DNA from: Trichopria drosophilae
Taxonomy: Eukaryota; Arthropoda; Insecta; Hymenoptera; Diapriidae
Assembly (NCBI GenBank): GCA_030407085.1
Contig: CM059585.1
Span: 120,137,001-120,201,000, forward strand
Length of the DNA stretch: 64,000 nucleotides
Direction of reading: 5' to 3'
Numbering within the stretch: the stretch's first letter is position 1; each line of letters starts with the position of its first letter. This document shows, piece by piece, positions 4,200 to 56,000 of this stretch. The notes beneath the pieces were generated by a model. The model was given only the letters and a program-made list of their open reading frames with translations. It searched no databases and was not told where the DNA came from. The translations under genes and the position numbers were made by a program.

Positions 4200-4690
4200 T
4201 TTGCGATATTTGGTATATCCGGTGTTAGATTTTCAAAATTCAAAATGGCGAATCCAATATGGCCGACCAAACATTTAAAAAAATGGTCACGTTTTATCAT
4301 ATTTGGTATGTAGAGATTTTCGAGGTTGCTGATAACGAATCCGGTGTTAGATTTTCAAAATTCAAAATGGCGGATCCAATATGGCCGACCAGACATTTGG
4401 AAATTTGTAATTTTGTCTGATATTTGGTATATAGGGGTTTTCGAGGATACTGATTACGAATCCGGTGTTAGATTTTCAAAATTCAAAATGGCGGATCCAA
4501 TATGGCCGACCAAACATTTAAAAAAATGGTCACGTTTTATCATATTTGGTGTATAGAGGTTTTCGAGGTTGCCGATAACGAATCCGGTGTTAGATTTTCA
4601 AAATTCAAAATGGCGGATCCAATATGGCCGACCAAAAATTTGAAAAAACGGTCATGCTGTCTCATATTTGGTATATAGAGGGTTTGAAGT
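4200..4690. repeat. ~120-bp tandem array of the GGATCC dispersed unit
   Basis: Four consecutive copies of a unit of about 120 bp, each with TCCGGTGTTAGATTTTCAAA, then AATGGCGGATCCAATATGG, then CGACCA and a poly-A spacer (starts near 4220, 4339, 4463 and 4584). The copies are close to identical, so amplification here is fairly recent. The same core is scattered singly through the window. Confidence 0.85.
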
Positions 4691-4749
4691 AGTTGGTGAC
4701 GTATCGGATGTTAAGTTTTCGAAATTGAAAATGGCCGAGCTGATGTGGT

Positions 4750-6924: not shown

Positions 6925-18569
<11,645 letters not shown>

Positions 18570-19506: not shown

Positions 19507-20816
19507 TTAACCCTTTAAGGACCAAATGTACAAAAATTTGACACGAAGTTTGTCAGTATTTTTTAGTATTTAAATTCAATAAAAAAAATTGTGGTATATA
19601 CGTTTCCAATTGCTCGAACCCCGCTCTTTCGAATGGTGGATGGTAAAATACTGTCAATTTTAAAATGAACGAATTACAGACCATTTTTTAACAAAAATAA
19701 TGAGATTTTAAAAGTTTTTTTTTTCATTTATCGTTTTTTTTATCACTTATAGCATTACTATGCCTCAGTTTGGTATAAATAACGTGACAAAAATGTCTAA
19801 GCTTCAAAATGGTGATATATGTTTTTATAAAATTCGAAATGGCGGTCCCGAAAATGGCGTCCTAAATGAAATTTTCTTGAAAAATTTGAGAACGCTCTGA
19901 CACAAAAATTATGAACTTTATAAAAAAAATGATAAGAGTAATAAGTTGTTAGAATTCATCGACGAATACACTGGAATTTTGTCAGATTTTTTTTATGATA
20001 TTTTAAAAAAATTTTTTTTTTGAAAATTTTTAAAAGTTTACCAAAAACTCTGAAAAAATTCTAGTATACTCTTTGATGAATTCTAAGCATTTTTTGTTCT
20101 TTGCAATTTTTTCTAAAAGTTGATAATTTCCGATGGAAAAAATATAAAATATATACATACATTTATATAAATACGCAACATTCGAGATTTATTTCTTCGA
20201 AAACTATCGACTTTAGGACAAAAATGCAAAGAACAAAAAAATGCTTAGAATTCATCAAAAAATGTACTCATTTTTTTCAGAATTTTTGGAAAAAAACAAT
20301 TAAAAATTTTTTCAAAATATCATAAAAAAAATCGGACAAAATTCCAGTGTATTCGTCGATGAATTCTAACAACTTTTTACTCTTATCATTTTTTTTCATA
20401 GTCATAGGTTCATAATTTTTGTGTCAGAGCGTTCTCAAATTTTTCAAGAAAATTTCATTTAGGACGCCATTTTCGGGACCACCATTTCGAATTTTATAAA
20501 AACATATATCACCATTTTGAAGCTTAGACATTTTTGTCGCGTTATTTATACCGAACTGAGGCATAGTAATGCTATAAGTGATAAAAAAAAACGATAAATG
20601 AAAAAAAACTTTTAAAATCTCATGATTTTTGTTAAAAAATGGTCTGTAATTCGTTCATTTTAAAATTGACAGTATTTTACCATACACCATTCGAAAGAGC
20701 GGGGTTCGAGCAATTGGAAACGTATATACCACAATTTTTTTCATTGAATTTAAATACTAAAAAATACTGACAAACTTCGTGTCAAATTTTTGTACATTTG
20801 GTCCTTAAAGGGTTAA
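19507..20816. mobile_element. 1.3-kb palindromic TTAA element A
   Basis: TTAA|CCCTTTAAGGACCAAATG at the left and CATTTGGTCCTTAAAGGG|TTAA at the right. The whole element (19511-20812) is a near-perfect palindrome: phrases such as GACACGAAGTTTGTCAGTAT return as complements at the mirrored place. No transposase frame. Ends and target site resemble piggyBac-type MITEs; the full-length palindrome is unusual for them. Confidence 0.85.
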
Positions 20817-22132
20817 CCCATTAACGCCTGAAATGGCATTTTTTATACTTCATTTTCAATCAAGTATTTCGTATGAAAATCGAAGTTGAACACAATTGAT
20901 AGGTACATATCCTATTGTTTTCGAGGTAGCTTTTCAAGATTCCGAGGTCAAAATTGAGTTTCAGCCATCAGGAATTCCAATATGGCGCCGAATTTTAAAA
21001 AAATTCCAAAAAATTGGTAATTATTTATTCCTATCAATTTTTTTCGAGCTATAAGAATATTGCAATTCTATTGGAACCGTCCATAATGGTGCATAAAACA
21101 GTTGAATTTTAAGAAAAAATTTTACTTTTATACCCCACATCATTGTAACGACCTCAAAATGGCGTCAACAATGAAAATTTCTTTGAAAAATTTCTGAACG
21201 TTCTAACTCAAAAACTACGTGCTCTTATAAAAAAATGCTAAGAATGAAAAGTTCTTAGAATTAATCGAAAAATATAGTGGAGTTTTTTCTGATTTTTGTG
21301 ATGACATTTTGAAAAATTTTTTTTCAAAATTTTTTTTCAAAATTTTTTTCAAAATTATAATTTATTTATGAAAAATTCTGAAAAAAATTTGGTGTATTCA
21401 CTTATGAATTCTACGAGTTTTTTGTTCTTTGCAATTTTTTCCAAAAGTTTTTGGAGGGAAAAAATCCTAAACTACAATATTTGAAATTCATTTCCTCGAA
21501 AACTATCAACTTTTCGAAAAAAATTGCAAAGAACATATAACTCTTACAATTCATCAGAAAATACACTACATTTTTTTCAGAATTTTTTGCAAATAAATTA
21601 CAATTTTTAAAAAAAATTTCAAAAAAAATTTATCAAAATGTCATCAAAAAAGATTGAAAAAATTCCACTATATCGCTTGATGAATTTTAAGAACTTTTCA
21701 TTCTAGGCATTTTTTTTAAAAGTTGGTAGTTTTTGGGTTAGACCGTCCAGAAATTTCTCAAAGAAATTTTCGTTGTTGACGCCATTTTGAGGTCGTTAGA
21801 ATGATGTAGGGTATAAAAATAAAATTTTTTCTTAAGATTCAACTGTTTTTTGCACCATTATGCAAGGTTTCAATAAAATTCCAATATTCTAATAGCTCGA
21901 CAAAAATTTATAAGAATAAAAAATTTCTAATTTTTTGGAAATTTTTTTCATATTCGACGCCATATTAGAATTTTTGATGGCTGAAACTCAATGGTGACCT
22001 CGGAATCTTGAAGAGCGACCTCGAAAACAGTAGGATACGTACCTCTCAATTGTTTTCAACTTTGATTTTGATACGAAATACTTGATTGAAAATGAAGTAT
22101 AAAAATTATTATTTCAGGCGTTAATGGGTTAA
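20813..22132. mobile_element. 1.3-kb palindromic TTAA element B
   Basis: TTAA|CCCATTAACGCCTGAAATG at left and CATTTCAGG-type complement ...GGCGTTAATGGG|TTAA at right (20813-20816, 22129-22132). Full-length inverted repeat. It shares its left TTAA with the right TTAA of element A. Same family as the element at 28499-29766. Confidence 0.85.
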
Positions 22133-22489
22133 TTACAAAATTAAAAATAACGATTTAAATGTCAAAAAACGCAAAAAATAGGATATACTTTTTTATAAAA
22201 CATTTTTTTATCACAGAAAGAGTATTTGCCGGCACAAAATTCGTTCGCTAAAGGTGAAGAAAATAGTTGTAGTATTAAGATATATTTTTTAGATATTAAA
22301 AAACTAACATCATGATCACAAAATGGCGACCGCGGTAAGATTTTTCTTTTTAAAACTTAACAAATGTTATTCATGAAAACTGCAAACTGTACAAAAAATG
22401 TTGTGAGAATAAACGTTTTTTAAAATGTGTCAAAGAATATTCTCAATTTTTTTCAGTATGTGTTCATACAATTTGTTATTTTTTGAAAA

Positions 22490-28000: not shown

Positions 28001-28494
28001 TTTTTTATGAATACTGAATGCGTTTGTGATGACCAATGAAAAATTAATCACGCGATAAACTCATAAATATATGGTTATCACGAATGATTTTACCATTCTG
28101 ACTAGTAACAATTTTTACAAGAGCATTTGAATGTCATAAACGTTTACGCGTCTGCACTAAAAAATTCCTGCAACCTAGTTACATTTGTCTCCGCTAGGCG
28201 CGTATACGATGCTCGTAATTGTGCTTGTGCTCCATTGTGGCTCCCGTTATAGAAATGTGTTTTCAATACCCCCTTTCAAAATCAGATGAAATGACAATCT
28301 GAAATAGTGCATCTAGTGTGTAAACAATCTAATGCTGAAGCAAACATTTCGATTTTTTAAAATTTTATCTAAATGTCTTCGATAAAGAACAAAAATACAG
28401 CAAACATAGAGAAATTATTATAAGCTAAAACAAATTAAACAAAAAAAAAAACACGCAAGTAAAAATACCACTTTATTATGATAAACATATTACA
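25059..28494. other. Gene desert; one ~290-bp duplication
   Basis: No gene found. The phrase AACACGTGTTTCCAATCTTC occurs near 26697 and again near 26987, both followed by TTGTTATTT and ATCCTAAACA, so about 70 bp are conserved in two copies 290 bp apart. Frames of 61-105 codons are low-complexity AT translations. Confidence 0.45.
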
Positions 28495-29770
28495 TTAACC
28501 CATTAACGCCTGAAATGACAATTTTTATACTTCATTTTCAATCAAGTATTTCGTATCAAAATCAAAGTTGAAAACAATTGAGAGGTACGTATCCTACTGT
28601 TTTCGAGGTCGCTCGTCAAGATTCCGAGGTCAAAATTGAGTTTCAGCCATCAGTCATTCCAATATGACGCCGAATATCAAAAAAATTGGGAATTTTTTAT
28701 ACTTATCATTTTTTTCGAGCTATTAGAATATTGGGATTCTATTGAAACTCTCAACAAAGGTGAACAAAATACTTCAATTTTAAGGAAAAATTTTACTTTT
28801 ATACCCTACATCATTCTAATGACCTCAAAATGGTGTCAACAATGAAAATGTCTTTGAGAAATTTCTGGACGCTCTAACTCAAAAACTACAAACTTTAACA
28901 AAAAAATGCCCAGAATGAAAAGTTCTTAAAATTCATCAAGCGATATAGTAGAATTTTTTCAAAATTTTTTGATTACATTTTGAGACATTTTTTTTCAAAA
29001 TTGTAATTTATTTACAAAAAATTCTGAAAAAAATTTAGTGTATTCTCTGATGAATTCTAAGAGTTATTTGTTATTTGCAATTTTTTCGAAAAGTTAATAG
29101 TTTTCGAGGAAATGAATTTCAAATATAATTTAGGATTTTTTCCCCCAAAAAACTATCAACTTTTGGAAAAAATTGCAAAGAACAAAAAAGCTCGTAGAAT
29201 TCATAAGTGAATACACCAAATTTCTTTCAGAATTTTTCATAAATAAATTATGATTTTGAAAAAAATGTTGAAAAAAAATTTCTCAAAATGTCATCACAAA
29301 AATCTGAAAAAAATCCACTATATTTCCCGATTAATTCTAAGAACTTTTCATTCTTAGCATTTTTTTATAACAGCATGTAATTTTTTAGTTAGAACGTTCA
29401 GAAATTTTCATTGTTGACGCCATTTTGAGGTCGTTACAATGATGTGGGGTATAAAAGTAAAATTTTTCCTTAAAATTGAAGTATTTTGTTCACCTTTGTT
29501 CAGAGTTTCAATAGAATCCCAATATTCTAATAGCTCGAAAAAAATTGATAGACATAAATAATTACCAATTTTTTGGAATTTTTTTAAAAGTTCGGCGCCA
29601 TATTGGAATTCCTGATGGCTGAAACTCAATTTCGACCTCGGAATCTTGAAGAGCGACCTCCAAAACAATAGAATATGTACCTTTCAATTGTTTTCAACTT
29701 TAATTTTGATATGAAATACTTGATTGATAATGAAGTATAAAAAATGCCATTTCTGGCGTTAATGGGTTAA
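28495..29770. mobile_element. 1.27-kb palindromic TTAA element D (same family as B)
   Basis: TTAA|CCCATTAACGCCTGAAATG and the right-hand complement ending GGCGTTAATGGG|TTAA; element 28499-29766. Closely similar to element B over both arms (shared TTTCGTATCAAAATCAAAGT and many others). Full palindrome. The 69- and 86-codon frames on opposite strands are the two arms of the same hairpin. Confidence 0.85.
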
Positions 29771-31842
29771 TTATTCTATATATCAATATTTTCCCATATC
29801 TGGAGTTTTCATGTAATATGAAAAATTTTTGTTCTGGAATAATGCAAATTGTTATTCAATAATGAAACGTTAATATTCTTTTTCCTATTTTTTTAAAGAT
29901 ATCTCCCTATAAAATTTCTCTCAGAGTGGACTTTACGGATAAAAAGGTAAGCATACTTTGCATTTCTTTCTTGCAGTTTTTGAGAATTTGGACTTTCCGA
30001 ATTAGTAAAAAAAAAAAACAAAACATTCTAAAAACAATTTGAGCGTATTCTTTGACCAATACTAAGAAATTGTTGTACTACGAAAATGTTCACTAATAAA
30101 ATGTTAAAATATTAATATTTGCCAAACCTATTTTTTTTTTGCATTTTCGAGATCTGTTTTCGATTTTTCGGTTTAAAAAGACTCTTAGAAAGATTGTTAA
30201 GGTTTTTTTTGCATAATCACTTTTTATCACGCGTTTTCCCAATGGATTCAAATGTTTAAAAAATCTCTATTCACTGGTTGCTAATGGATGTACTTAATCG
30301 GTGGACCTGAGAATTATACTAATCAATAGTGAAGGAAGATATTTTTTAGTTTATATGACGGTATCAAAATGGCGGTCAAAAGACGAAATTTTCCAAAATT
30401 CGCGTTATAAAGGTAATTGTTCCACCTAAATGCCACAATGAAAAGAACGAAGTAACAATTAAGGTTATTCATGTAATCGACATCTTGCATTATGCACACT
30501 TTTTAGTTATGGTATAATAAAGACATTATACAAATTCAATATGGCGGCCGAAATATTATAACGTACACTAAAACTCCCCATTAAGCACAAATTAAAAAAA
30601 TTATTACCTTATTACTTCTCAAATGACCTCATGCTCATTATACTTATAGCATATAAGAAGTAATATAAAAGGATTCTTTTTCGGTACTTTAGCCGTAAAA
30701 TCCGATTTTACGGCCTACTTTCAGTCCGTAAAATGACATTTTACGGATCACGTGTAACATGAATCTGTGCTGTCAAAAATATAACCCATACGGACTAAAT
30801 GCAGACCTCGAAATCGAATTTTTACAACTTTCAATAAGATTTTACGGCCTTGTATCGAAAAATACTATTTTAACAAATTTATTTATGATAATTGTAAATT
30901 AGCACGTATAAAATTATTAGTAAATAAGTGCCCAGTATTATAAAATGTATTCAAATATTCAAATATAAATGCATTTCGATGCATGAGAATTTTGAAAATT
31001 TGAAAAGTTGAAAATATCAAAGTTCTATAAAATAGCTTAAATCTTGGAAATTTCGAAGATTTTATAATTTTGAAAGTCATTCCCACTTAAATAGAATTAA
31101 TTTTGATTTTTCTTTTCTTACATTTTCTTAAGTGAAAGTAATCATAATTTTTTTTTTTTTTTTTTTTTTTTGTAGTAGTTTAATCTTGTATTTTTGAATA
31201 AGTTCTTGATGTTTCATTCCCACTTGATCCGAATGACGTTTCATTGTTCCTCTATTCGTGTAAATCAAACAATTGTTTTAAGAACGAAATGACGGATCTA
31301 AAATGGACATCAAAATGTCGACACATTACAAAAACGCATTATTTTTCATTTATAAGATGATCAGTCCATTTAATGCCATAATACTAAACAAAATGTAACA
31401 GCAAACAAAAATCGATTTAAATAGATTTAGATTTTGAATTATTTTGAATTATTTTGAATTCTTTGGAATTCACTTTTTGAAACTCTGGCGAATAATTGAC
31501 GAAAGTTTGTGAATATATCCACTGCGAGTTTTCATTATATCTTACAAGTATTAGTTTAGGATTATTTAAAAAAAAATAATTTAACCTCCATTTTGGAACC
31601 AAAATTTCGCTTAATGACCCCCATAATGCATACATAACCTTTCTTTTTCATTCATATGAATTAAAAAATTATAAGTAAGGAGAAGGCGTTCAAAATTATT
31701 AATGGATGATATTTTCAATACATCTGCATATATTGAATACAATTTGGAATATAGAAAGATTGGAAAATGTTCAGAAAGTGAATTCAAAGATTGAGCACAT
31801 AATTATTATTACATAATATTTTTCAATCTATTTCGTTTACGG
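29771..31842. other. Repeat-rich intergenic DNA
   Basis: No gene. A small cluster of CCGTAAAATC/GATTTTACGG inverted repeats at 30690-30850, a run of about 27 T at 31146-31172, and GGCGGTC- or GGCGGCCG-containing repeat fragments near 30370 and 30545. The phrase TTTTCTTAAGTGAAAGTAAT at about 31125 recurs near 43990. Confidence 0.4.
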
Positions 31843-33614: not shown

Positions 33615-34844
33615 ATTACTACGTTGGGAATGAGACGTATTAAATTACTTAAAAATAGACAAATAAGTAAGAATTTTCTTTTCCGCAATTTTGTTTCTTA
33701 AGTGAAAGTAATTTTAATATAGGAGATCTTGGAATAAATCGAACTAAATTAAAATAGATGTTATTTGGCCTTCATTCCAGCACTGATTTTTGCTCGCGGA
33801 GTGATCATTACCTTAAAAACTGTAAAAGTACATAATTATATAAATTGAAAAATTTATTTATCATCGAACGAAAGAAAAGATACAATATGTATATTAAAAA
33901 TATACATATTGCATCTTTTTTGTGGTGTTTCATCTCATACTTAAAAATAGAATTCATTATAATACATTTTAATGGATTCAAAGTACGAATAGAAGTGGAT
34001 TAACATTTTTATTCTGATTAATTTTTGGGTACCATTGCAGTGAATTTTCGTTTTCTGGGTGGGATGTACCATAATTTTACGGCTTTTTTCCGTGAAAAAT
34101 GTACACGATTATTGGTAAACATTTTTTATTTACAAAAATATACTAATACAAGAAAATTAAAAAAAAAAACAATAAAAAAAAAATAAGCAGAAATAGAACC
34201 TTCAATATTTTAAAAACTTCGACAAAACGTCGACCAAAAAAAAGAAACTATTTTCTTACATTAATATTTTGGTCACCTTGATGATTCGCCATTTTGGTTG
34301 TGCCTTTTTTGTTTGGTTCGCGGTAGTTTAAAAAAAAAAAGAAAAATTATGCGTTATCAAAAAGGAGGGATTTCGTGCCATTTTGTATACCAAATTTCAT
34401 CCAAATTCAGCTATTTTTTGCATTTCTATCCTCCATTTTGGATCCGCTATTTTGAATTTTGCCATTTTTAGTACACAATCGAAATTGGGGACTTCCTCAA
34501 GCTTCTAGTACCGAGTTTCATAAAAATCCAGGCACTTTTCGGAATTCGTACTGTCATATTGGATCCGCCATTTTGTATTTGGAAAATGCGATGAGAGATG
34601 CGTCATCAACGACCCATAAAAACCCTATGTACAAATTTTTGTAAAATCGAAAAATATTGTTTATTTTCGTCCGCCATATTGGATCTGCCATTTTAAATAT
34701 GGGAAATCTGATAAGAGATTCGTAATCAGCTACTAATAATACCAGAATATACCAAAATTTATGGAAATGTCATAAAAATGTAGTTGGCAAAATTGAAGTA
34801 CATAGCCGAAATTTTTCGTCTTCGAGCCGTCATTTTGGACGTCG
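33615..34844. other. Intergenic with dispersed GGATCC repeats next to the Transib element
   Basis: No gene. From about 34385 to 34720 there are inverted copies of the dispersed unit (CCATATTGGATCTGCCATTT and variants). A short hairpin of TATGTATATTAAAAATATACATA type lies at 33886-33912. Confidence 0.45.
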
Positions 34845-34893
34845 CACAGTGGGGCAAAGTCCCCATTTCGTGGCCAAAAATCGCAAATGACCT
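34845..34893 (+). repeat. Left terminal inverted repeat of the Transib-like element
   Basis: CACAGTG (34845-34851), GGGC, a variable stretch, then TGGCCAAAAATCGCAAATGA (34871-34890). The right end shows the same blocks at the same distances. CCAAAAATC at 34874-34882, 22 nt from the heptamer, matches 7 of 9 bases of the V(D)J nonamer consensus ACAAAAACC. Confidence 0.85.
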
Positions 34894-35310
34894 ATATGAG
34901 GGTTTTTGGGGTCGCTGATTACGAATCTGAGGTCAGATTTGAAAAATTCAAAATGGCGGATCCAATATGGCGGACTAAAAATTCGAATTTCTATTAATTT
35001 GACTGAATATGGTTACTCGGGGGGTTTTGGGGGTCGCTGATTATGAATCTGATGTCCGATTTTGTAAATTCAAAATGGCGGATCCAAAATGGCGGACTAA
35101 AAATTCTAATTTTTATTAATTTGACTGAAAATGGTTACTCGGGGGGTTTTGGGGGTCGCTGATTATGAATCTGATGTCCGATTTTGTAAATTCAAAATGG
35201 CGGATCCAAAATGGCGGACGAATGTGCGAAAATATTCTTTAACTGAAACGAAATTACTCATTTACGGATTTTTGGGGTCGCTGATTACGAGTCCGCAGTT
35301 AGATTTTAAA
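34880..35310. repeat. Subterminal tandem array inside the Transib-like element
   Basis: Four units of about 120-125 bp with GTCGCTGATTATGAATCTGA, TGTCCGATTTTGTAAATTC and AAAATGGCGGATCCAAAATG in order. Units 2 and 3 are nearly identical; units 1 and 4 are diverged. The same unit occurs outside the element in this window. Confidence 0.85.
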
Positions 35311-35475
35311 AATTGATAATAGCGGAAGTACATTATGAAAGTAAATGGTAATAATACGCACAAATAAGTAAAATTTATATGTCGGCTTTTTGGTAGTGAA
35401 ATTGAAGGAACTGGAAGAATGTCGGGATGTACTTGTAATCCAAAACTACAAAACTTCAAATGAAAAAATAATGCA

Positions 35476-35481
35476 TTTATT
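35476..35481 (-). terminator. Candidate poly(A) signal of the transposase gene
   Basis: AATAAA on the minus strand, 27 nt beyond the stop codon and before the subterminal array. Confidence 0.5.
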
Positions 35482-35507
35482 ATTATGTAATTCTGATGTA
35501 CAAAAAT

Positions 35508-38500
35508 TTAATAACAAAAATCTTGCTCTTCATCGGATTTATACATTGCTTCAGATTCGCTTTCCGATGTAGATGAATCTGATAAGTATGTAGCATTTTC
35601 TTGTGGCGAAATTTCCGGCGGCTTAAGAAGTCGTATAACTTCTGATGACAATGACTTCAACGGCTTTTGAGGCAGTTTGCGAATACTTGAAATGTACGGA
35701 TCAGAGGTAACTAGTAGTCTGTTAAAGATATCCTGTAAATTCGATGTTCTTGAACTTTTCCTCGAGAAATCCTCACGAAAACGTTTTATATCTTTATTGC
35801 GCGACTCCTGTGCATCCGCAGAAAGTTGACCAATCGGCAATAACGCATTTGCAATAATTTCTGGTCCGTGTATTAGCAATTTATGTATGGATGTTGGCAT
35901 ATAGTACCATGGATATAGGTTGACATATTGACGTGCCGTTTCCACAGAGTATTCCTTAAATTTTGTGTCATCTACATGATAGCCACTTGAAATAACTTGC
36001 AAAATGGTATGAAATCGACGAATAAGGCCTTCGTTCACTCCTGTTATTCTTGCGGATATTGTCGCATTTTCGAAGAATCGACGTGCCGTATTGCCGTCAT
36101 TCGTACTTCCAAACCCTGGCTTTGGGCAATCGACAGTAAGTCCGAGTTCGGCAGAAAATCCTTTTTGTATATTTGCTTTTCTTTCAGCAACTATCTTCTT
36201 TTCATCTTCTTTGCGCGCTTGCCATTTTTTACTTCCAAGTTTATAAGATAAATGCAGCATGCATTCAAAGCAGCGAATCCAGGCATGCAGAGTTGACATA
36301 CCAAATCTCAGATTGTCTACACATATTTCCTTAGCAAGCATCCTGTCAATGTCATTAAATTCTTTTGACGTTGCTTTACATAAGAAGCAACGCTGTGCCG
36401 AGGTAGTGCCACTTACAGAATTGCACACTTTTCCATCGATCATTGTGAAAAACATCTCGTATTTAACTGATACTGGAATTCCATGCATGACCCTTGACAA
36501 GGGTTCAAGGGCTTTGATCTGATTTTCAACATCTGTAACTTCATTCACTGTCAGTTGTACATCTTCATGAGCAAACTGTACTTTGATAGGCCGACAAAAC
36601 CGTGGAGAAGACGGCCTCGGGTTTTTCCAAACAATGACTTCCTTTTTCGTTCGGTTGTCTCTACCAACCATCTGTAGAGGTACTACTGATGTAAAAAATA
36701 TACTGTCGTCGCATTTTCCGTCTTCGCTGAACTTTTGTTTGTATACACTTTGGCCGGAACTACCGTCACAGCCCCACTTGCAACATAAGCATAAATTGTC
36801 GACAATTTCAGGTGGTAAGGTTGCAATGACATCTTCCTGTAACATTAAAATTCGGCCTGCAGTGTGGTCCAGTAGAGCTTGTAACTTCACTTCACCGCAA
36901 CTCTCACTGATAGAAATACTGGTTTTTGTTGGATAGCAACGAATTTTTGCACTCATCACCTCTTTATAAGACGGATACAATTTACAATAATTTTCTTTAG
37001 CGACATTTCGTATTCCTTGATAGGTTCGTTTTGAAAATCGATGTTCCACAAGTACCGAAAGTGCTGCATCCGCAGACAAAGTATTTTCACTCTTTGACTT
37101 TAAAGCTGAGATATACTGCGATGCTTTTGACGAGCTTGTAGAAGTGATATCTTGAATGATATTAGCAGCTTGCGATTGACCTGATGCCCTAAGACTCATT
37201 GTAGTCGCATAAGCCAATTCCGGTAAAGAAACGGTACTGCGTAAATCTTGTGTTTTTCTCCTCTTCGATCTTTCACTGGAAGCCGAAAATGACAGCGAAG
37301 GGCGACCAGATTGTACAATATTTTTTGACGGAGTTGATGTTTGACGTTCACTGCTAGGTAAGGTACTGAATTGTACGATACTATTTAACCATTCTTCGTT
37401 GTTTTTTAAAAACACTGCTTCTTTTCTATATGCCGCTGCCCATCGAGTTCTAATGTTGGAAAATAGCAAATTCATAGTATGCTTCATATCCGATTCTATT
37501 TCAATGATGTATCCTGTATTTGCAGCAATGGATGTTATCAAGCCATCGACTATGTTTTCGTTACTGTTTTTGATATTATTTTTAATTATGAAGAAAATAT
37601 CTTTTCTCGAGTAAGACAATTTTTTAGCAGATGTAGATGGTCCTGAAATGTAATAAATGTAAGATTAAAATGTAATACGATTTTAAAAAATATATTTAAA
37701 TTCTAATAAAAAAAATATATATATATGTACATATGGGTAAGTTAATTTCATTTTTTTAAGGGGAGGGTAAACCCAAAAAAATCACCTCTACGAAATACAG
37801 ATTTAAAAAATTGTAAATGTAATTATATATAGTCATATAATTTGATATGTTGAACAATTATCAATTACAAACGCTAGGACACTTTAATGTAAGAATAAAT
37901 AATAAAATATCTCTAAATGAAAATTTCAATTTTTATGAGAAATGTACCGAGCAGGTATGTCATTCTTTTCTTTTAATACTTGCTTTGTATAATGAAATAA
38001 CGGATCTCAAGTAAACATTCCTTTACAGGGAGCAGTCCTTTTATCTAATGTCGAATTGCAACAAAATAACTTACAATATACAAGACAGTTTTTACAACTT
38101 AATGGTTATAATTTAGATTTTATAAATTCATACATAAAAAAGCGTCTTAAGAAAATAAACAAATCAAATTGACGTTTTATTTAAGTTATCATATTTATTT
38201 AGCGCAATAAACTTAAAGTCATAGTAAAATAAGTAAAATTTATTAACTTATATTTTTGTAAAATATTTTGAAAAGATAATTGTTAAAAATATATTTACGT
38301 TTCAAAAAAAAAGAAATAATGCTATTGTACGCTTCTGCCACATACACTTCGATGCGTCGTCACGTCGCGTCGCTCGCGTCGGCGCCGCGCCGGCCGCAAC
38401 GGTCGTAAATTTCAACGTCGCACTAACATTTAATTAACAATTCGATCCGCAGTCCTCCGCAGCTGGTTTTTTTATGTATTAAAATTGACAATATACAGAA

Positions 38501-38691
38501 CATATTCCAATAAATATCGAAACAGGACCTCGCAAGACAGTTTTTAAAAGAACTTGTAAACATTATCTTCGCCGAAAACACAATTTGTTTATACAATTGT
38601 ATGTATATGTTGTTAAAAAATAAAAACACATGAAATTAATACTAGTTATGTGTGGAAATGTATTGTACATACCTCCAGGATGGTGTTCCAT
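35508..38691 (-). CDS. RAG1-like / Transib-superfamily transposase, 717 aa, two exons
   Basis: DDE-type transposase of the RAG1/Transib fold class. A 19-nt first exon (38673-38691, encoding MEHHPG plus one base, donor GTATGT) joins in frame to exon 2 (35508-37642, acceptor TTTCAG). Exon 2 alone has only a TTG at its 5' open end, which supports the splice. RAG1-type landmarks in order: Asp299 in KWGCDGSSG (RAG1 SCDG), Asp409 in MIDGK 16 residues before a CxxC at 425-428 (RAG1 GYDEK then CTLC), H-x4-H at 593-598 in IHKLLIHGPEI, and Glu619 in AQESRNKDIKRFRE. So a full DDE triad and the C2H2 zinc site are present. Residues about 90-150 are Ser/Thr-rich; the C-terminus is acidic. No frameshift or stop. 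Assignment rests on motif order and spacing recalled from RAG1; the exact family within Transib is unknown. Confidence 0.85.
38345..38405. promoter_or_regulatory. Short CG-dense patch in the transposase intron
   Basis: About 60 bp with CGTCGTCACGTCGCGTCG and GGCGCCGCGCCGGCC-like sequence, embedded in AT-rich intron DNA. It stands out sharply in composition. It could be an internal regulatory element or enhancer of transposase expression; function is inferred only from composition. Confidence 0.3.
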
Positions 38692-38914
38692 TTTTCGCTT
38701 GAATATTAATGAATGGTAACTACACTTTTTATTGCCGTACAGTTTCCGAATTTACACCTTCCAAATGCCACGCTCGTGCGCACGAACCGAAGGTCTACTT
38801 TACACTGACATATTGACGATTCCTAAGCATCCGGTAACTTACCCTTGTACAATTGTGTGGTGGGACGTTCCCAGAACCCATTACATACAACGATTTCCAG
38901 GTCAAAATAAAATA

Positions 38915-38963
38915 CTTCATTTTCGATATTTTGGCCAGCTTTTCGTGAATCGGCCCCACTGTG
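38915..38963 (-). repeat. Right terminal inverted repeat of the Transib-like element
   Basis: Read inward on the minus strand: CACAGTG, GGGC, 15 variable nt, then TGGCCAAAATATCGAAAATG. It matches the left end block for block with the same 19-nt spacing; only the stretch between is unrelated. Confidence 0.85.
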
Positions 38964-38968
38964 CGTCG

Positions 38969-39709
38969 CCATCTTGAATTTCAAAATGTTCACCTTCCAT
39001 TTTGAAGATCAGGGCCCATGTACACAAAATTAGTATCGAGACCATTTTTTATCCGATTTTGGTGGGAAAATGTTGAATAAAGAACATTATTTAGTGAAAA
39101 AATCGTAATTTTTTTAAAAATAAACAAATATAACTTCTTTTGTTTTTATTGTTAGAAAATTCTGATGGCAGATTTCTTAATTAAATTTCTTACATTTTAA
39201 CTGAAATTTTATTATTCACTACAATAATCATTATAGTGAGTTTTGTATCAAATTTTATCAAACGTACCTGTACAGAAATTAAAAAATAATATAAATAATC
39301 TTTATATCATTTACTTTCAAACTCAGTATAATTAGTAAATTTCTCGACTGTATGTTTAAAAATTTTCAGTAATTAGTAGCGGTTTAGTTAACTTTTTACT
39401 TAACGAGACCGCTACTAATTAATGAAAATTTTACTTTCAAACTCGATGAGAAAAGAATTTCAACGACTATTTTAAATTAAAAGATGCAGGCTACGTTCTT
39501 TACAAATTTGATTTTTTGTTTGTAATTAACTAAAATAAACTTTTATTTTAATTATGTTAATACCTACATATATGCATGCAACATTCTCTCCTGGAAAGGA
39601 AAACAAGAATTGTATAAAAAAATTACTTTATTTATGACATATATACATATTTACATAATGTACAATAATAAAAGTAAAGTTAGCATACGCAGTTCCGCAG
39701 TGTTTATAA
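38969..39709. other. Spacer between transposon and WDR3; one hairpin
   Basis: No gene. A hairpin at about 39357-39432 pairs AATTTTCAGTAATTAGTAGC with its near-complement, loop about 25 nt. It is flanked by direct repeats TTACTTTCAAACTC (near 39310 and 39430). The WDR3 3' end occupies the last ~80 bp. Confidence 0.5.
39627..39632 (-). terminator. WDR3: Candidate poly(A) signal of WDR3
   Basis: AATAAA on the minus strand, about 80 nt downstream of the WDR3 stop codon. Confidence 0.55.
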
Positions 39710-42492: not shown

Positions 42493-43672
42493 GAATCAAC
42501 GGCGAAAAGCCTATTACATAAAAATATAGTAACAATATTAGGTGAAACTTAACAATACATTAGAAAAATAGAAAAATAAGATAACAATTAAATCGCTATC
42601 CATAAATATGTAATTAACGTAAATAAAAAAATTCATGCAAAAGTGGAAAACATTAAAAAAATTCGAGATTTAAATATCGATAACGACTCCAGTTCTCGAA
42701 CTTCAGGCAAAAGTGAGTTCCATGCTCTCCGCAACCGAGTTATCGGAGCATAATACCCTATATCCGATCGATTAACCTCCTCAATTAATAATCTCTGTGA
42801 ACGAATGCTGTAAGCAATCTGATGTAAAGGAAAGGACTGTCTCAATTCGGTACACTTAATGATGCCCTTCATTATTTTAAAAGTATTGATTAAATCAAAT
42901 CTATTATGAATAGATTTAATGGAGGGCACATTAAAATACTTTGCCAGAGCGGAATAATCGTGATCAATAATACTCATTGGTGATCCTTTTTTATAAGCTA
43001 AATAACGTATAAATTTATACAAGACAGCAGACAACAATATAAAAGACTGGGTAATACAATTGATTTGAATATTGAGATAATCGCAGGGATACTACGAAAA
43101 TCTCTAGTAGATCTTTTTAGAAATCCCAATACAGATGTTGCGTTTGAGACTGTCCTAATTAAATGCTCTTTATAATTAAGAAAGTTATCTAAGATCCCGA
43201 GATCCTTCACAGAGCTTACAGAGTCTAGAGGCTGGTCATTAATCTTATAATTAGACCAGACAGGAGAGTGACTTTTAACAAACCGTACAAAGTTACATTT
43301 TTTAATATTTAGGGTCAATCGATTTAACACTGACCACTCGACCAGTGAGTCAGTGCAGATCCCTCTGCAACCTGGACACATCGGAAAGAGAATGAATTTC
43401 AACATAGAGTTTAACATCATCCGCGTATAACAAAATATTAGAAAATCTCAAACTCTGAGTTAAGTCATTCATAAAAAGAATGAACAATATAGGACCCAAG
43501 TGTGACCCTTGAGGTACACCAGAGGTTGCAACGAAGGGTTCAAACTCACAAGTACGCACTCGAACAACTTGCTCTCTGGCAGAGAGAAAAGAAGCTATCC
43601 ATTGAAGGATATTGCCCCATACTCCCATTTTAAATAACTTAGTTTTGTGAAATTTATTTATTAAAGTTCTCG
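42461..43672 (-). pseudogene. 5'-truncated, frameshifted non-LTR retrotransposon (LINE) reverse transcriptase
   Basis: Three consecutive minus-strand frames (43350-43628, 42998-43420, 42633-43037) form the C-terminal half of one reverse transcriptase. The first carries GVPQGSHLGPILFILFMNDL and the YADD active site (about 43416-43427). The second carries EWSVLNRLTLNIKKC and KDLGI, the third the thumb/tail with APITRLRRAWNSLLP. Two frameshifts (near 43360 and 43020) break it. The 3' end is a (TTTA)n tail on plus (42461-42493), typical of Jockey/CR1-like LINEs. The 5' part with the endonuclease is missing. AGTTCT occurs just outside both ends (42451 and 43663) and may be a worn target duplication. 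Lies in the same orientation as WDR3. Confidence 0.85.
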
Positions 43673-44129
43673 TTTCAAATTTTGTGAGTTTATCCTGGTA
43701 AAAATGGAGGCGTACACGAAGAGGACAGTAAGAGTGAAATTAAAGGTACATGAAGAGTACGTACGCTTACATACCGCTTCCCAAAGAGTACAATAAACGT
43801 ATGTACACTTAAATACTGCTTCCCAAAGTGTACAATAAGAGTACAATAAGCGAACAATAAGAATGATTTGGACATTAAGAGCGATATTAAATGGAAATGT
43901 TTCTTTCCACTCACAATAAGTAACGATGAAAGAAATTTGGAACATTCGTCAATGCATAGAATTAATTTTGATTTTTCTTTTCTGACATTTTCTTAAGTGA
44001 AAGTAATCATAAGTTCAGTCAATGCATTTTGATGTCAAATCGGGAACATGAATTTGTTTGCATTGTTCTGGAGATTAATGCTATGAGTTCTAAATAAAAT
44101 ATAAATATGAATGTAAATATAAAACACAT

Positions 44130-45461
44130 TTAACCCTTTGCGGCATACATTTTTCTTTACATGAAAATCAGCTGAAACTTGCTGCACGGAAAGCAATTGT
44201 AAGTAAATGCCACTGCTCAGGGAAGTAACAGCTACCGTACGATTTCTGACGAATTTCAAATGGCGGTTAACGTTCGAAATCGTTAAAAAGAACATTTTTA
44301 TAAGTAGATACACTTTTATTACACCTTTTTGAATAGTTATTCATAATTTTCCGACTATTTAGGTATTAATAATTAATTTTAATGATCTATAAATGCTGTT
44401 GAAACGGACAAATTTGGTATTTTTTTCGTTCTAAAGCTTCCGTATTGAAAACAGTGCAAGATACACTAAAAATGCACTGAAACTTTTTTGTAGAGCACAA
44501 AATTTCCTACAAAAAAGTCAGCAAAGGCCTTAGACTGAAGTTAATAGTTTAGCCATGAGCAACGATGGAATATGCCTCATATTTTACAAAAATTCTAAAA
44601 TATTCATAATTAACTTGTAAGACAAAATTCCAGCGTTATTTATAGATAATCTATTAACTTCAGACTAGGGCTCTCGCTGACTTTTTTTTAGGAAATTTTG
44701 TGCTCTATAAAAAAGGTTCAGTGCAGTTGTAGTGTATCTTGCACTGTTTTCAATACGGAAGCTTTAGAATGAAAAAAGTACCAAGTTTTTCCGTTTCAAC
44801 AACGTTTATAGATCATTAGAAATAATTATTAATAACTATATCGTCTAGAAATTATCAATAAATATTCTCAAAGGTGCACTCAAATTGGATCCGTTTATAA
44901 AAATTTTCTTTTTAACGAATTCGAATTGTAACCGTCATTTCAAATTTGTCAGAATCTGTGCGGTAACTACTACTTCCCAAAATGCTGTCGCATTGACTTA
45001 AAATTTCTTTGCATGTACTCGGGGGTTTTTGGGGTTGCTGATCACGAATCTGATCTCAGATTTTGAAAATTCAAAATGTCAGATGCAATATGGCGGGTCA
45101 AAAATAATTTTTTAAATTTAGATCCGCCATATTACATCCGCCATTTTGAAATTTGGAAAACTGGCCCTGGATTCGTTATTAGTGAACCGAAATACTTCAT
45201 ACAGATTTTTTTCAAATTTTTTTTACCATATAGTTTAGGCACAATTACATTTATTGTAAAAAAACGTGTTTTTTTAGACTTTTTTTATTTATTACAATAT
45301 ATGTATTTATCAATAAAAATGTTTGATGCCTTTAGTATAGTAAAGAATAGCATAGACTAAAAAATTTGGCTTTAAAACGTGTGAACTACTGTTCGAAAAT
45401 TGCGAATAAGTGAAGAGAAAAAGGTGTCACTCTGGAATGTCACTATGTCGCAAAGGGTTAA
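44130..45461. mobile_element. TTAA-flanked element E carrying a nested palindrome
   Basis: Ends TTAA|CCCTTTGCGGCATA (44130-44133 is TTAA) and TATGTCGCAAAGGG|TTAA (TTAA 45458-45461), an imperfect 14-bp inverted repeat with a TTAA target duplication. Most of its length is the foldback copy at 44187-45012 plus a piece of the GGATCC dispersed unit at 45015-45190. Confidence 0.75.
44187..45012. mobile_element. 0.8-kb palindromic foldback element, copy B
   Basis: Highly similar to copy A at 16356-17173 across the full length, with scattered substitutions and small indels (for example GGGAAGTAACAGCTACCG in both). The same inverted-repeat structure is kept. Nested in element E. Confidence 0.8.
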
Positions 45462-50078: not shown

Positions 50079-53000
50079 TCAAGACAGTGTTAAATTCGCT
50101 TCTTCGAAGACTGTTGGAGGTATCACTCGAACAGAGTAGTGAATTTTTTTGTTTCGCAGAAGACTGTAACTGTTGTCAAAAACAACCGAATCTGTAACAA
50201 ATAAGGTTTTATTAAAGTTTTACAATCGTAAAGTTCAAGATTTTTTTTTGTTAATGCAACTCACAAGTAGACGGAACTTCTTCACACGTGACGATGCCAA
50301 TTTCATCCAACTGATGTGCCGAAACTCGACGGATTGGTACAATTTCAGTTAGTCCACCATCGTTAGTTTTTCTCATTATTCCAAATTTAATATCGTGATC
50401 TTCTGTTCGAAATTCCCAACTAAAGAGAAAATTGACAACATTAAACACTTTAAGAACAGTTTTTGAGTCATTTGATCTAAGTAATTACCTCAATAATGAG
50501 CCAACTTCGTCAGGAGAGAACTCCAATTTAAGTTTATCTCCTTTTCGGATTGTAACGGATGTAAAATCATTAGTATCTTTGTCATTTTTATTCGTGTACA
50601 AATCCTTTGGAACTTTTCCACCTTGACACACCTACATAAAGAAAGTAATGTTATTTCCTCATTTTAATTCGATAAATACTTTTTTACCTTTGAGAGAAGT
50701 TTTGGATTTCCATCGGGATCTGTCAAAGTTCCGCCAAAATGAGCAGGTAATTGATCAGCGTCGATGGCTTTCAACAATGCTGCTTTCCATCTACGACGAT
50801 CAGCTTTATGAATTTGAATCTTTGAGATAGTATATTCATTCATGAATCTCTTCGCAATAGAAAAGGCAATGGCAAAAACTTTTGGAGCTGAAAAAAAATG
50901 ATGAAACTAAATTTTTCTTATATTTATTAAATAACCGACAACTTACCATTAATAATATAACAACATTTAAGGATTTCTGGATAATTTGCTTCGTACATTT
51001 GGATCAAAGCTATCACAACTTCACCGGCTATTAAAAGAAAATATTTTTTAATATCTCGTTTGGTAAATTTGTGTAATTTTTCAAACATACCTGGACGCCA
51101 CATATACTGCTTCAGACTAAAATTTTCCATGTCAAATATCACAGTGATCTGTTGCGCAGTTGGACCATGCTTCTCGGCTTGTTGCTGACAGATTTTTAGG
51201 TAGTATTCCAGTAATCTTATTGTACCTCGTATCATATCTCTTCTTGAAACGACATGCAATATTCCATACAGGTCCAAGCCCTCGAACACTGTGACTACCA
51301 CTGAAAATACAAGCAAATTACATTTTAATAATGTCTTTTTGATCAATAGTATTAGTATTTATCTACATATTACACTCTGCAAGTAGTACAAACTAATTAT
51401 TTTACTACTACACACTAAAAAAATTAGTTTACTACCAGTGATTTGAATCTTTACAAAATTTGGAGTCGAAAATATGTAAATGAAAATGGCGGGCACAATA
51501 GTATGACAAAATGGCTGAAGATGGAGGTTACAGGAAGTTAACCTAAAAACTTTAGTTAAATGTCAACCACATTAGCAGAGATCTATAATCTCTGACATTA
51601 GATCTCCATTTTGAAATATTTATTCAGTGAAAGTAAAAATGTCACAAAAAGTTAAAAATTATTTAAAGTAAATGATCCTACGTTTCTATGCCAAACTTGA
51701 TATAATAAATTTATGAAAAATGTGTTACTTACGAGCACAATTGTTATAAATAAATAAATTCCTAAAAATCGTTTTTTTTTAAATAAATGTAATTCTAACT
51801 GAGTTACACGATAAAAAAATGTTTAAAAAATCTCTCCGAAGTTTACCGAGTTGCTGATTTTGAATCCGATATCCTTTTTTGAAAATTCAAAATGGTGATT
51901 TAATATGGATGCCAAAAAATTAAAGAAACTTTTTAATTTTAATGAAACTTGGTATATTATTGTTTTTGGAGACGCAAATCACGAATCAGATTTTCAAAAT
52001 TTAAAATTGAGGATTCAAGATGGCGGATCGATAATAATTAAATTTGTTTTCTGCAGAAAAGTTTAGAATTACACGTGGAATGTCGGTGACTTTTGGCATT
52101 TGTGTTCCAGATTGAATCCGCTATTTTTGTTTAAACCTAAAATTAATAAACAACCTTCTTCAAAAGTCTGCTTAGTATCCGGTTTCAGCATCAAGTACAA
52201 TGTAACGTTTACATTTACGTCGCTTCTCTGTCATTAGATCCGCCATTTTGAATTTTCAAAATAGATAAATTTATTTTCCGTGTAAAGAAAATGTATACAT
52301 ATTTCAAAGTGTTATTTCTTGCATTCACACTTTTTTTATGGGATTGACCTGAAACATATTACTCGCGGGTTTTAGGGGTCGTTGATTAAAAATTTCAAAA
52401 TTAAAAATGGCGGATAGAAATGCGAAATGTGATTTAATTTGTATGAAAATTGTTAATCGAATTTTTTTGTGTCGATGCTTTCGAATTTAATTTTAGAATT
52501 TCGAAATTCAATATGGGGAATTCAAAATGGCTGACCAAATCGCGAAAAGCAATTTGATTTTTATATACATGTTTCCGAATTAACTTATAATTTCAGGAAA
52601 TTTTATTTGTAATTCGTGATAAAGTTATAAATCAGGAAAATAACAAATTAAAGTACAATAACAAGTGGAAATTAAATTATTTTATATTTTGGCACTCCAT
52701 TTTGGATTAACAATTTTGTATTTTAAATTTTCTATCTCATATTCGGAATCAGCAACTAACATAATTGCAAGTTCAGATTCGTAATGAATTATCACAAAAA
52801 CTCACGAATTTCAGGTGAATTTATTGAATTTAAAGAAATTTGTCCGCCATATTGAATTCGCTATTTTCATTTTGAAATACTTCATAAAACTATCAAACAT
52901 ATATTATCATGTCACGTTTTATTATTGTCAGATTAAAAATGGAAGGCCTAAACAGATAGTTAAATCTTAAACAATCCTTCATTTCTCCTTCTCCACCTTT

Positions 53001-56000
53001 TTCTTTACGTATATTATGTATCAAAAAATCATTTTTGTTCACCTCCCACCCTTGAAAAGTATGCCTTCTGGGGAGATTATTAATATCAATTATTTTGTTC
53101 ATTATTTTTTATATTTTTCGACTTTTGTCATATTTTTCGAACGCATTTTGCTTTCAGAAACGAATCACGAGTTAAACCATTATATCTGGTTTATAAAAAA
53201 AAATTAACTGATTAAAGGCCATAAACCATTAATTTCCTTAGAATAGGGAATAAGATTAATTCTTGATTCATTCGTAGTACGACTAACATAATGTGATAAT
53301 TTATCCATCATTATCTTTACATTCTTACCACAATAAGTAGCGTAAAAATGTATACTATAAATATGTTCTTCATAATATTATTTTGTATTTAGTATTTAAC
53401 ATCATGGAATCAAATTAACAATTTTAAGTTCTTCAAATTTGGAACGGCATTACTTGGTCATAATACAAAACAAAATTAATTTCTGTAATAATTTAAGGAG
53501 TGCGTGGAATAACGGTATAAATCGAACTATAACATTCTTTATCTTTGTATAAAACATATACTTTTTTGTACCTATATCTTGTGCAGAATTATTGTAACGT
53601 TTGTTATACGTTAAATCAAATTCAATAATCACAAAAGTGGTAAAATGCCACTTATTTCTAGTAAGTTTGTAACAGGAGGAAATGAACGATTTCTCTTGGT
53701 AAGAGTCGGGCAACGTCCACTCTTTTACGGCAAAAAGTTTATATCTGCAATTAGCAACCTCAAAGACCCTTTAGTGACCATTTTAAAGAAAATACGTTAA
53801 TATTTTAGAATTGTCATCCGCCATATTGGTTCCGTCATTTTCAATTTTGAAAATCTGACCCCATATTTAAAATCAGCGACCCCAAAAACCTTATAATGCC
53901 AATTTTTAAGGAGATCCGTTAATGGTTTAAAAATGCCCTCCGCCATTTTGGTTACACCATTTTGAATTTTGAAAATCTAATCCTATATTTGAAATCAGCG
54001 ATACTAAAAACATTATACTGCCCATTTAAGGAAATCCGTTAATGTTTTAAAAATGTAATTCGCCATATTGGATCCGCCATTATGAATTTTGAAAACCTGG
54101 CCTTATTTTTGTAATCAGAGATTCAAAAAATATAAATTTGCGGTTATTCGCCAATTGCCGATTACGAAACTTCAATCGATTGATTAAAAATGAAATAATA
54201 TATAAATTTCGCACTTGGGCGCCATTTTGAAATTTTTAAAAAACACAGGCATCACTTTGAAGCTGAAATATTTTGAACGCGATATTTTGCACTGCCGACT
54301 CTTCTGCGTTACATTTTCGGGTGTAAATTGACGATTTATTAAAAATATATTTAAAAATTTCACGATTTTTTTGAAAAAAAAAAAACAGCTGTATCTTTTT
54401 TGGGAAGAGTTTTGGGCCAATTCTGTTCCTAGTATCTGAAAGAGCAGCTTTTTTTACGTAAGACATATTGGGTGCAGATTTTTTTCTTGGCTATAGCATT
54501 ATTCAGTATCCCGCTGAAGTTGGTGTTCAAAAAATGATGGTACCGTTTTTAAAGGGTGCCAAAATTTTCCTTGAATTTTCCTTGAACTTTTCTGCTGTAA
54601 GTTCTTATGCGTACTTTCCGATTCTGATCGTATAATTTTTGAAAAATACAATGCAGAAAAGATACAATGGATTATTTTACAAACAGTCGGATTTTTCCCT
54701 CTAATTTTTTTTTGTTATCAACAATATTGCGCCGAAATTAGACGAGGAGGTCACAATAAAGTGAAAATATGGCGGCTTGAAGCCGAAAATTAAATGACAT
54801 TTTCGATTTTGCCATTTTTAACAAGTTAAATTGATAAATTCTTACCGAAAATATGTCGCTAATCTCTGATTGGATGTCGAATATGCGAAATTCAAAATGG
54901 CGGATTCAATATGTCCAAAATTTTCAAATGTCCCCATTTTTATAAAAGTCTGCATTCACTGACTTTCTGCATTGTCGATGATGAAATTGATATTACAGAA
55001 TTCTAATGGCAGTTTATCACGATGTTCGTGATGTTCGTATATTTGTAAAGTTAATAAATAATCACATTTTACGTTCGTTAGCCGTCAAAACATTCGTGAT
55101 CAGCAACCCTAAAAACCACGGTATACCGGTTTTTATAATAAACCGAACCATTTCGAAAAATTTCGTCCTCGATATTGAATTTCCCAAACTCGACATTAGT
55201 GATTAGCGACACAAATAACTTTTAATAAACATATTTTTAGTGAGAATTTATAAATTTAACGTGTCAAATATGGCAAAATCCAAAATGTCATTAAATTTTC
55301 AGCTTCAATCCGTCATTTAAAGTTTGCTGTCCGAAGCCGAGAAATGTTCACTTCATAGTGACCACACATTTAATTTTGGCGCGAAATTGTTGATCGAAAA
55401 AATTTAGGGTGTAAAAATCCGACTTTTTGTTAAATAATCGATTGAATCTTTTTTGCATTATATTTTTAAAATTTCTTAAAGGTCATAATCGGAAAGTACG
55501 ATCAATTTCACGTTGAAAATGACAAGTCCAGAATTTTTTCAACATTGATGTCCTATTAGAATTTACAGTTGAAAAGTTCAAGAAAAATTCGTCCTTTTGA
55601 GACTTAAAGGGTTAAATAACACGTAAACACAGAAGTACTCCAAGTCAATGCAGTGCCAATTAAATAAAACTGGTGCAAACATTACTTAAAGTCCTTATCC
55701 GGCTATTCTTGGGTATGATCTTTCGATTGGTGCAGATTAAACTATTTTTTTTTTATTACAAATGTTTTTTATTAAACTACCCCGTAATACCACAAAAACA
55801 TGCGAATTTGATAGATTTAAGTTAAAAAAATACAATTTTTCGATCCATTATTTTTCAAACGTCATTTTTACCTTGAAGCGATTTTTTATTTGCATAAAGC
55901 GTTTTGAAATCTTACAATTAGAGCTCGAACTAATAAATTAGGTGCCTAGAACAATTAATGTCAATACATCGAATCCAATGTGTCGTCCGAAATGACGTAT

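Follow-up and report, generated by a model that had tools for sequence, protein, structure and literature searches.

Is the element between positions 34840 and 38968 of the window, the 64,000-nucleotide stretch of Trichopria drosophilae DNA analysed here, a complete Transib transposon, how closely does it approach the RAG system whose heptamer it carries at its ends, and is its family still moving? We address these questions in turn, starting from the ends of the element and the protein that would act on them, proceeding to its copies and target sites across the genome, and ending with its place among known Transib and RAG-like systems.

Architecture and termini of the element

The element spans 34845-38963 (4,119 bp) and is bordered on the left (34840-34844) and on the right (38964-38968) by the target site duplication CGTCG, exactly where an earlier note on this DNA had placed it; with both ends, a perfect duplication and an intact two-exon gene, it is also structurally complete, as that note had proposed. 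Its termini, described there as exact complements, are so only over their outermost 11 bp, CACAGTGGGGC, which include CACAGTG and are shared by both ends; further in, the ends differ apart from a second match of 9 bp, TGGCCAAAA, at end positions 27-35; over 40-bp arms that include the duplication, complementarity is 73%. Each end runs from the heptamer through a 22-bp spacer to an A-rich box. In the left TIR (34845-34882, plus strand) the heptamer occupies 34845-34851 and the nonamer-like box, CCAAAAATC, 34874-34882; in the right TIR (38926-38963, minus strand) the heptamer occupies 38957-38963 and the A-rich box, CCAAAATAT, 38926-38934. The RAG heptamer is CACAGTG and the RSS nonamer is ACAAAAACC, which the left box matches at seven of nine positions and the right box at five.

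An 11-bp inverted repeat accompanied by a 5-bp duplication at a distance of 1.5-6 kb occurs three times in the real window and 25 times over 30 first-order Markov windows. Generic inverted repeats of this kind are common by chance, and only the specific heptamer ends are rare: the CACAGTGGGGC pair is found in 0 of 300 Markov windows, as is a pair of CACAGTG ends accompanied by any 5-bp duplication that matches. The reality of the element is settled by the copies elsewhere in the genome.

The transposase gene and its product

The element has one minus-strand gene of two exons. Exon 1 (38691-38673, 19 nt) encodes MEHHPG and supplies the first base of the next codon, and exon 2 (37642-35508) encodes the catalytic core, the zinc residues and the GRP motif; the 1,030-bp intron between them (37643-38672) has GT/AG borders. 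The spliced frame has a single stop, at its end, and specifies the open 717-aa transposase that the earlier note had described, while the uninterrupted frame covers 718 codons from stop to stop. Exon 1 is a predicted call, supported by the annotated relative P0013 from Nylanderia fulva, which begins MDCVPGG, and by the preservation of the same 19 nt and GT donor in all 16 two-ended copies of the family described below; the AG acceptor is present in 15 of the 16, the remaining one being unscored. Within the AT-rich intron lies a CpG-rich patch (38330-38425; 64% G+C, CpG observed/expected 2.1), possibly a promoter or captured sequence.

By sequence, the best solved match of the transposase is HzTransib (E 3.9e-123, 415.7 bits; 557.7 bits by profile). 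The Pfam RAG1 family matches at 37.1 bits, its cut-off being 25, and 13 of the 17 sequences in alignment A1 match it with E no higher than 0.1. A protein search returned 603 relatives at E up to 0.001 from 7,988 scored candidates; the top relative among the 120 listed is 79% identical and unnamed, and those of the 120 that are named come from ants, a bee, Leptopilina, a cricket and a beetle. In an alignment of the query with 62 of the 120 (63 sequences), the catalytic D, D and E are conserved in 61, 62 and 62 sequences, the zinc C, C, H and H in 63, 63, 62 and 63, and the G, R and P of the GRP motif (114-116 in P0001) in 57, 58 and 52. The DDE triad is D299/D409/E619 in the spliced protein (D294/D404/E614 in P0001); sequence and profile alignments alike place it at the positions given for Hztransib, D126, D225 and E436 (PMC6941560), with an offset of 17 of our own between the solved-chain and paper numbering.

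A structure model built from the 63-sequence alignment (pLDDT 86.3, pTM 0.70) matches HzTransib in a fold search (6pqx_A; E 4.8e-39, TM 0.93 on the target, 43% identity), followed by RAG1 and amphioxus RAG1L at 14-18% identity. Alignments with RAG1 chains that are about 585-623 residues long extend over 631-658 columns, those with shorter chains (541-553 residues, among them an entry labelled 'without NBD domain') over about 558-567, a difference which suggests that the N-terminal third of the modelled transposase aligns with the nonamer-binding domain (NBD). A GRP-bearing NBD-like region is not new, since an NBD with GRP is already reported in both Transib subgroups (PMC9435367).

Ahead of the NBD-like region, residues 9-100 of P0001 form an N-terminal domain that is mostly confident in the model and missing from the solved HzTransib chain; a sequence search of solved chains with the first 196 residues revealed no convincing relative of it. 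That search gave 31 matches, 27 of them to designed armadillo repeats (best E 3.3e-4), which we read as probably compositional; three of these 27 list a stretch that passes by itself. Folded alone, the N-terminal 99 residues give a poor model (pLDDT 73.1, pTM 0.34).

Copies across the genome

In the 936-Mb genome (509 contigs), the left-end pattern CACAGTGGGGCNNAGTC has 21 exact occurrences and its reversed control none; resting on a single exact left-end pattern, the copy number is a lower bound. All 20 left-end loci outside the window were fetched for comparison. Both ends are present at 16 of the 21 loci, window included, 4,014-4,269 bp apart. The earlier note had asked for a search of this kind, with a lack of other such copies as a refutation; copies that share these ends and have different 5-bp duplications do exist. 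Of the remaining five loci, one is a fragment of the left end in L013; L014 is a truncated copy situated in an inverted duplicate of the copy at L013; and L009, L020 and L027 are diverged relatives in which no right end is recognised.

CACAGTG stands at both ends of all 16 copies, partly by construction, since a left 17-mer and a right 19-mer served to select them; the first 55 bp are free of any difference in 14 of the 16 on the left and in 15 on the right. Perfect 5-bp duplications flank 14 copies, the exceptions being L023 (CGGCG/TGTCG) and L026 (CGCCG/CGTCC). Because L015 and L016 have the same flanks and lie within an inverted duplication, the family represents 15 independent sites, 13 of them with perfect duplications. 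Two inverted duplications carry Transib insertions, that of L015/L016 (contig C5; 7.3 kb, 99.7%) and that of L013/L014 (contig C4; 3.9 kb, 99.8%), and these are either true palindromes or assembly artefacts.

The two-exon frame is intact in seven of the 16 copies (the window copy, L011, L015, L016, L021, L024 and L026), which encode 711-717 aa and keep their splice sites and both ends. The nine copies not scored intact include L017, whose exon 2 is unscored at the first base/acceptor; L018, in which part of the frame is missing; L022 and L023, with a common 29-bp deletion; and L010, L012, L013, L019 and L025, whose frames bear stops. Inward of the left TIR, a sub-terminal array of 122-bp repeat units (34885-35326, plus strand, in the window) has four cores in the window copy and three to five across the 16 copies (element positions 65-640); such variation within one young family implies that the array expands and contracts quickly.

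Target sites and insertion context

The duplications at the 13 independent perfect sites have a G+C content of 83% and a palindromic form, CGNCG, with a full fit in eight of the 13 versus 0.33% of 20,000 background 5-mers from the fetched loci. A GC bias of the target is already known for ProtoRAG, Transib and vertebrate RAG (PMC8289069), and the target of hopper is likewise described as GC-rich and palindromic (PMC3276498). In the window, the joined flanks align across the junction with the core of the 122-bp repeat, matching three element-internal units (E 5e-6, 5e-6 and 0.003) and, weakly, four further copies elsewhere in the window (E 0.03-1.4); by this alignment, the left part of the target (34827-34844) and its right part (38969-38987) belong to one degenerate repeat copy. 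Homing of the element into its own 122-bp repeat was considered and rejected, as the junction falls within the repeat in one of 16 cases only, the window's own (E up to 0.01), and the common feature is the CGNCG-like target. Insertion into tRNA genes was also discarded, with 0 tRNAs across the 16 joined sites. At L024, removal of the element and one duplication leaves joined flanks that keep a 333-codon retrotransposon pol frame open, in which the junction separates a reverse-transcriptase RNase H from an integrase zinc-binding domain; this copy looks to be seated in the pol gene of an apparent LTR retrotransposon.

The window around the element contains the host gene WDR3, which lies ~0.75 kb past the right end of the element; its closest match is from Nasonia vitripennis (66%), and its best-scoring named matches are nearly all from Hymenoptera, the one that ranks second in score being from a psyllid, Diaphorina citri. 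A broken retroelement marked by an RVT_1 fragment (43350-43739, minus strand; 48.9 bits) lies ~1 kb upstream of the WDR3 start, and a CRAL/TRIO domain fragment (50927-51358, minus strand; 32.2 bits) is probably a host-gene exon; Pfam searches covered 10 other frames, out of 28 with at least 95 codons, and two of the 10 matched. The 122-bp repeat family (AAAATGGCGGATCC... with GGTCGCTGATTACGAATC) is present inside the Transib as well as throughout the window, arranged in tandem or as inverted pairs, with window sites at 995-1325, 4217-4735, 12341-12625, 34422-34733, 45016-45153, 51850-52539 and 53740-54121. Near-palindromic long repeats of 0.8-1.3 kb (19507-20816; 20813-22133 with 28479-29785; 16354-17172 with 44186-45010), one pair of which is 94% identical, are probably non-autonomous inverted-repeat elements. 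Rfam (at gathering thresholds) and tRNA scans of the whole window found nothing, and no relatives were confirmed in viral contigs, for the repeat motif included, or in prokaryote genome contigs.

Age, decay and movement

Over the last 3,600 bp, the 16 copies diverge pairwise by a mean of 0.55% (0.11-0.95%), the range between the window copy and the other 15 being 0.28-0.64%. The insect mutation rate is about 3e-9 per site per generation, at which the family would, as a rough figure, be of the order of a million generations old or less. This low divergence and the perfect duplication bear out the recent movement that the earlier note had claimed: to judge from its copies, the family has jumped recently.

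In 12 of the 16 copies the frame can be aligned, and the distinct codon variants among these 12 comprise 38 non-synonymous, 13 synonymous and five stop changes, against expected shares of 0.685, 0.277 and 0.038 with transitions weighted 4:1. Codon changes between copies look neutral, as expected of decay after insertion, and thus no single copy is demonstrably maintained functional. Comparison with the older relatives L009, L020 and L027 gives dN of 0.28-0.68 and dS of 1.5-3.4 or not computable, and with synonymous sites saturated these values are only a general sign of constraint; L009 and L027 share the left end, have broken frames and are 64-69% identical in DNA over the coding part.

L013 (CGACG) and L019 (GGCCG) have unlike flanks and a common nonsense codon at position 480 (TGG to TGA); they share five minority-state substitutions, of which the stop is presumably one, and their grouping has a support of 0.97. 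The same stop at different sites means that an already disabled copy was probably mobilised in trans, by transposase made elsewhere.

Proposed mode of transposition and possible present activity

We hold it to be very likely that the element is an autonomous cut-and-paste Transib DNA transposon. By homology with HzTransib and RAG, we posit that its spliced mRNA would yield the 717-aa transposase and that a dimer of this protein would bind the two ends, with the NBD-like region on the A-rich box and the catalytic core on CACAGTG; a nick at the heptamer border would be followed by a cut via a hairpin on the flanking DNA, and the excised element would be inserted into a GC-rich site with a 5-bp stagger. 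This hairpin cut-and-paste chemistry we infer from homology.

That the family is still jumping today, through a native transposase whose NBD-like domain acts, at each end, on an A-rich box that 22 bp separate from a perfect RSS heptamer, is a tentative reading that we consider possible and somewhat doubtful. It is quite plausible, if short of probable, that the family is already dead: after a recent burst, the living population would now have no active transposase, and the window copy would be a well-preserved fossil. The nine copies not scored intact agree with such an extinction, as do the neutral changes between copies and the private substitutions found in every one of the 16 (five in the window copy), whereas the seven copies that retain frame, splice sites and both ends, and a divergence below 1%, argue against it.

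Two other explanations concern the nature of the element itself. An intact frame near the host gene WDR3 might suggest a host gene domesticated from Transib, with the ends as relics, but this is very improbable and already contradicted by the perfect duplication, by near-invariant ends across many dispersed copies and by the lack of purifying selection between copies. It is more improbable still that the element is a RAG-like (RAG1L-RAG2L) transposon: the Pfam RAG1 match and the position of RAG1 structures next in the fold search point that way, but HzTransib is far closer, and, where a RAG-like transposon would carry both genes together, the transposase is the sole frame of more than 121 codons in the element, with no second long frame and no RAG2-like gene among the long single frames covered. 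Judged from its sequence, the element is instead a Transib by every feature tested, namely homology to HzTransib in sequence and fold, the DDE triad, an RSS-like heptamer and a 5-bp GC-rich duplication, and its membership in the Transib/RAG1 family, asserted in the earlier note, is upheld by the protein alignments.

Relation to known systems

Hztransib of Helicoverpa zea, with 3,518 bp, a deduced protein of 489 aa and a GCTCG duplication (PMC1852546; PDB 6pqn, 6pqx), resembles the window element in its DDE at matching positions, its single gene, its TIRs and its 5-bp GC-rich duplication. In contrast, the window element is larger, its 717-aa protein is encoded in two exons around a 1-kb intron and exceeds the solved HzTransib chain by ~190 residues at the N-terminus, and it carries an array of 122-bp repeats and, at each end, an A-rich box; the TIRs of Hztransib are described as having little or no nonamer similarity in PMC8289069, which also ascribes symmetric TIRs to most Transib families. 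Transib TIRs with symmetric 20-22-bp spacers are on record (PMC8355894), and the window element is like these families in its heptamer, its 22-bp spacer at both ends and its nonamer-like box, and differs in sequence detail as far as the legend in that source conveys it. In Drosophila melanogaster, hopper and transib2 have many unfixed insertions in resequenced strains, 5-bp duplications and a palindromic target (PMC3276498), the motif being CCANTGG for these elements versus CGNCG for the window family. Transib is reported to be abundant in the wasp Leptopilina boulardi (PMC6035795), and among the titles on Transib in Hymenoptera, covering wasps, ants and Nasonia outside subscription papers, none concerns the window family. 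Five relatives from ants, a bee, Leptopilina and a cricket (P0013, P0015, P0020, P0023 and P0029), named uncharacterised or hypothetical, are 50-55% identical over 90-98% of the query and have the same motifs, a likeness at the level of the protein.

With vertebrate RAG1 and amphioxus ProtoRAG, the transposase shares the catalytic core fold, the DDE triad and an NBD-like GRP, and with RAG the element shares the heptamer CACAGTG; unlike them, it shows 14-18% identity in the fold matches, has no RAG2 partner and carries two 22-bp spacers instead of the 12/23 arrangement. The earlier note saw in such an element a direct relative of the ancestor of V(D)J recombination. The relationship to RAG1 stands, as a distant similarity, and the closeness to that ancestor was overstated: RAG1L and Transib are presented as two distinct clans, and most of the Transibs identified earlier fall into Subgroup II, the one farther from RAG1L (PMC9435367), and two origin models compete, Transib first and RAG-like transposon first (PMC7204232). 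Subgroup II is characterised by loss of the alpha11-alpha12 region and the CTT2 tail and is the only group for which the relevant account in PMC9435367 gives symmetric ends; the symmetric ends of the window element are compatible with this subgroup.

Earlier publications describe Transibs that move, 5-bp target duplications rich in G+C, an NBD-like region with GRP and symmetric spacers of 20-22 bp (PMC3276498, PMC8289069, PMC9435367, PMC8355894), and the window family leaves established views unchanged; what is new is one more Transib family. It is a very young one, whose 16 near-identical copies, seven intact frames and native full-length N-terminus make it useful for tests of end recognition. 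If the family is active today, it would be a second active Transib, more RAG-like than Hztransib, and would permit direct testing of bipartite end recognition.
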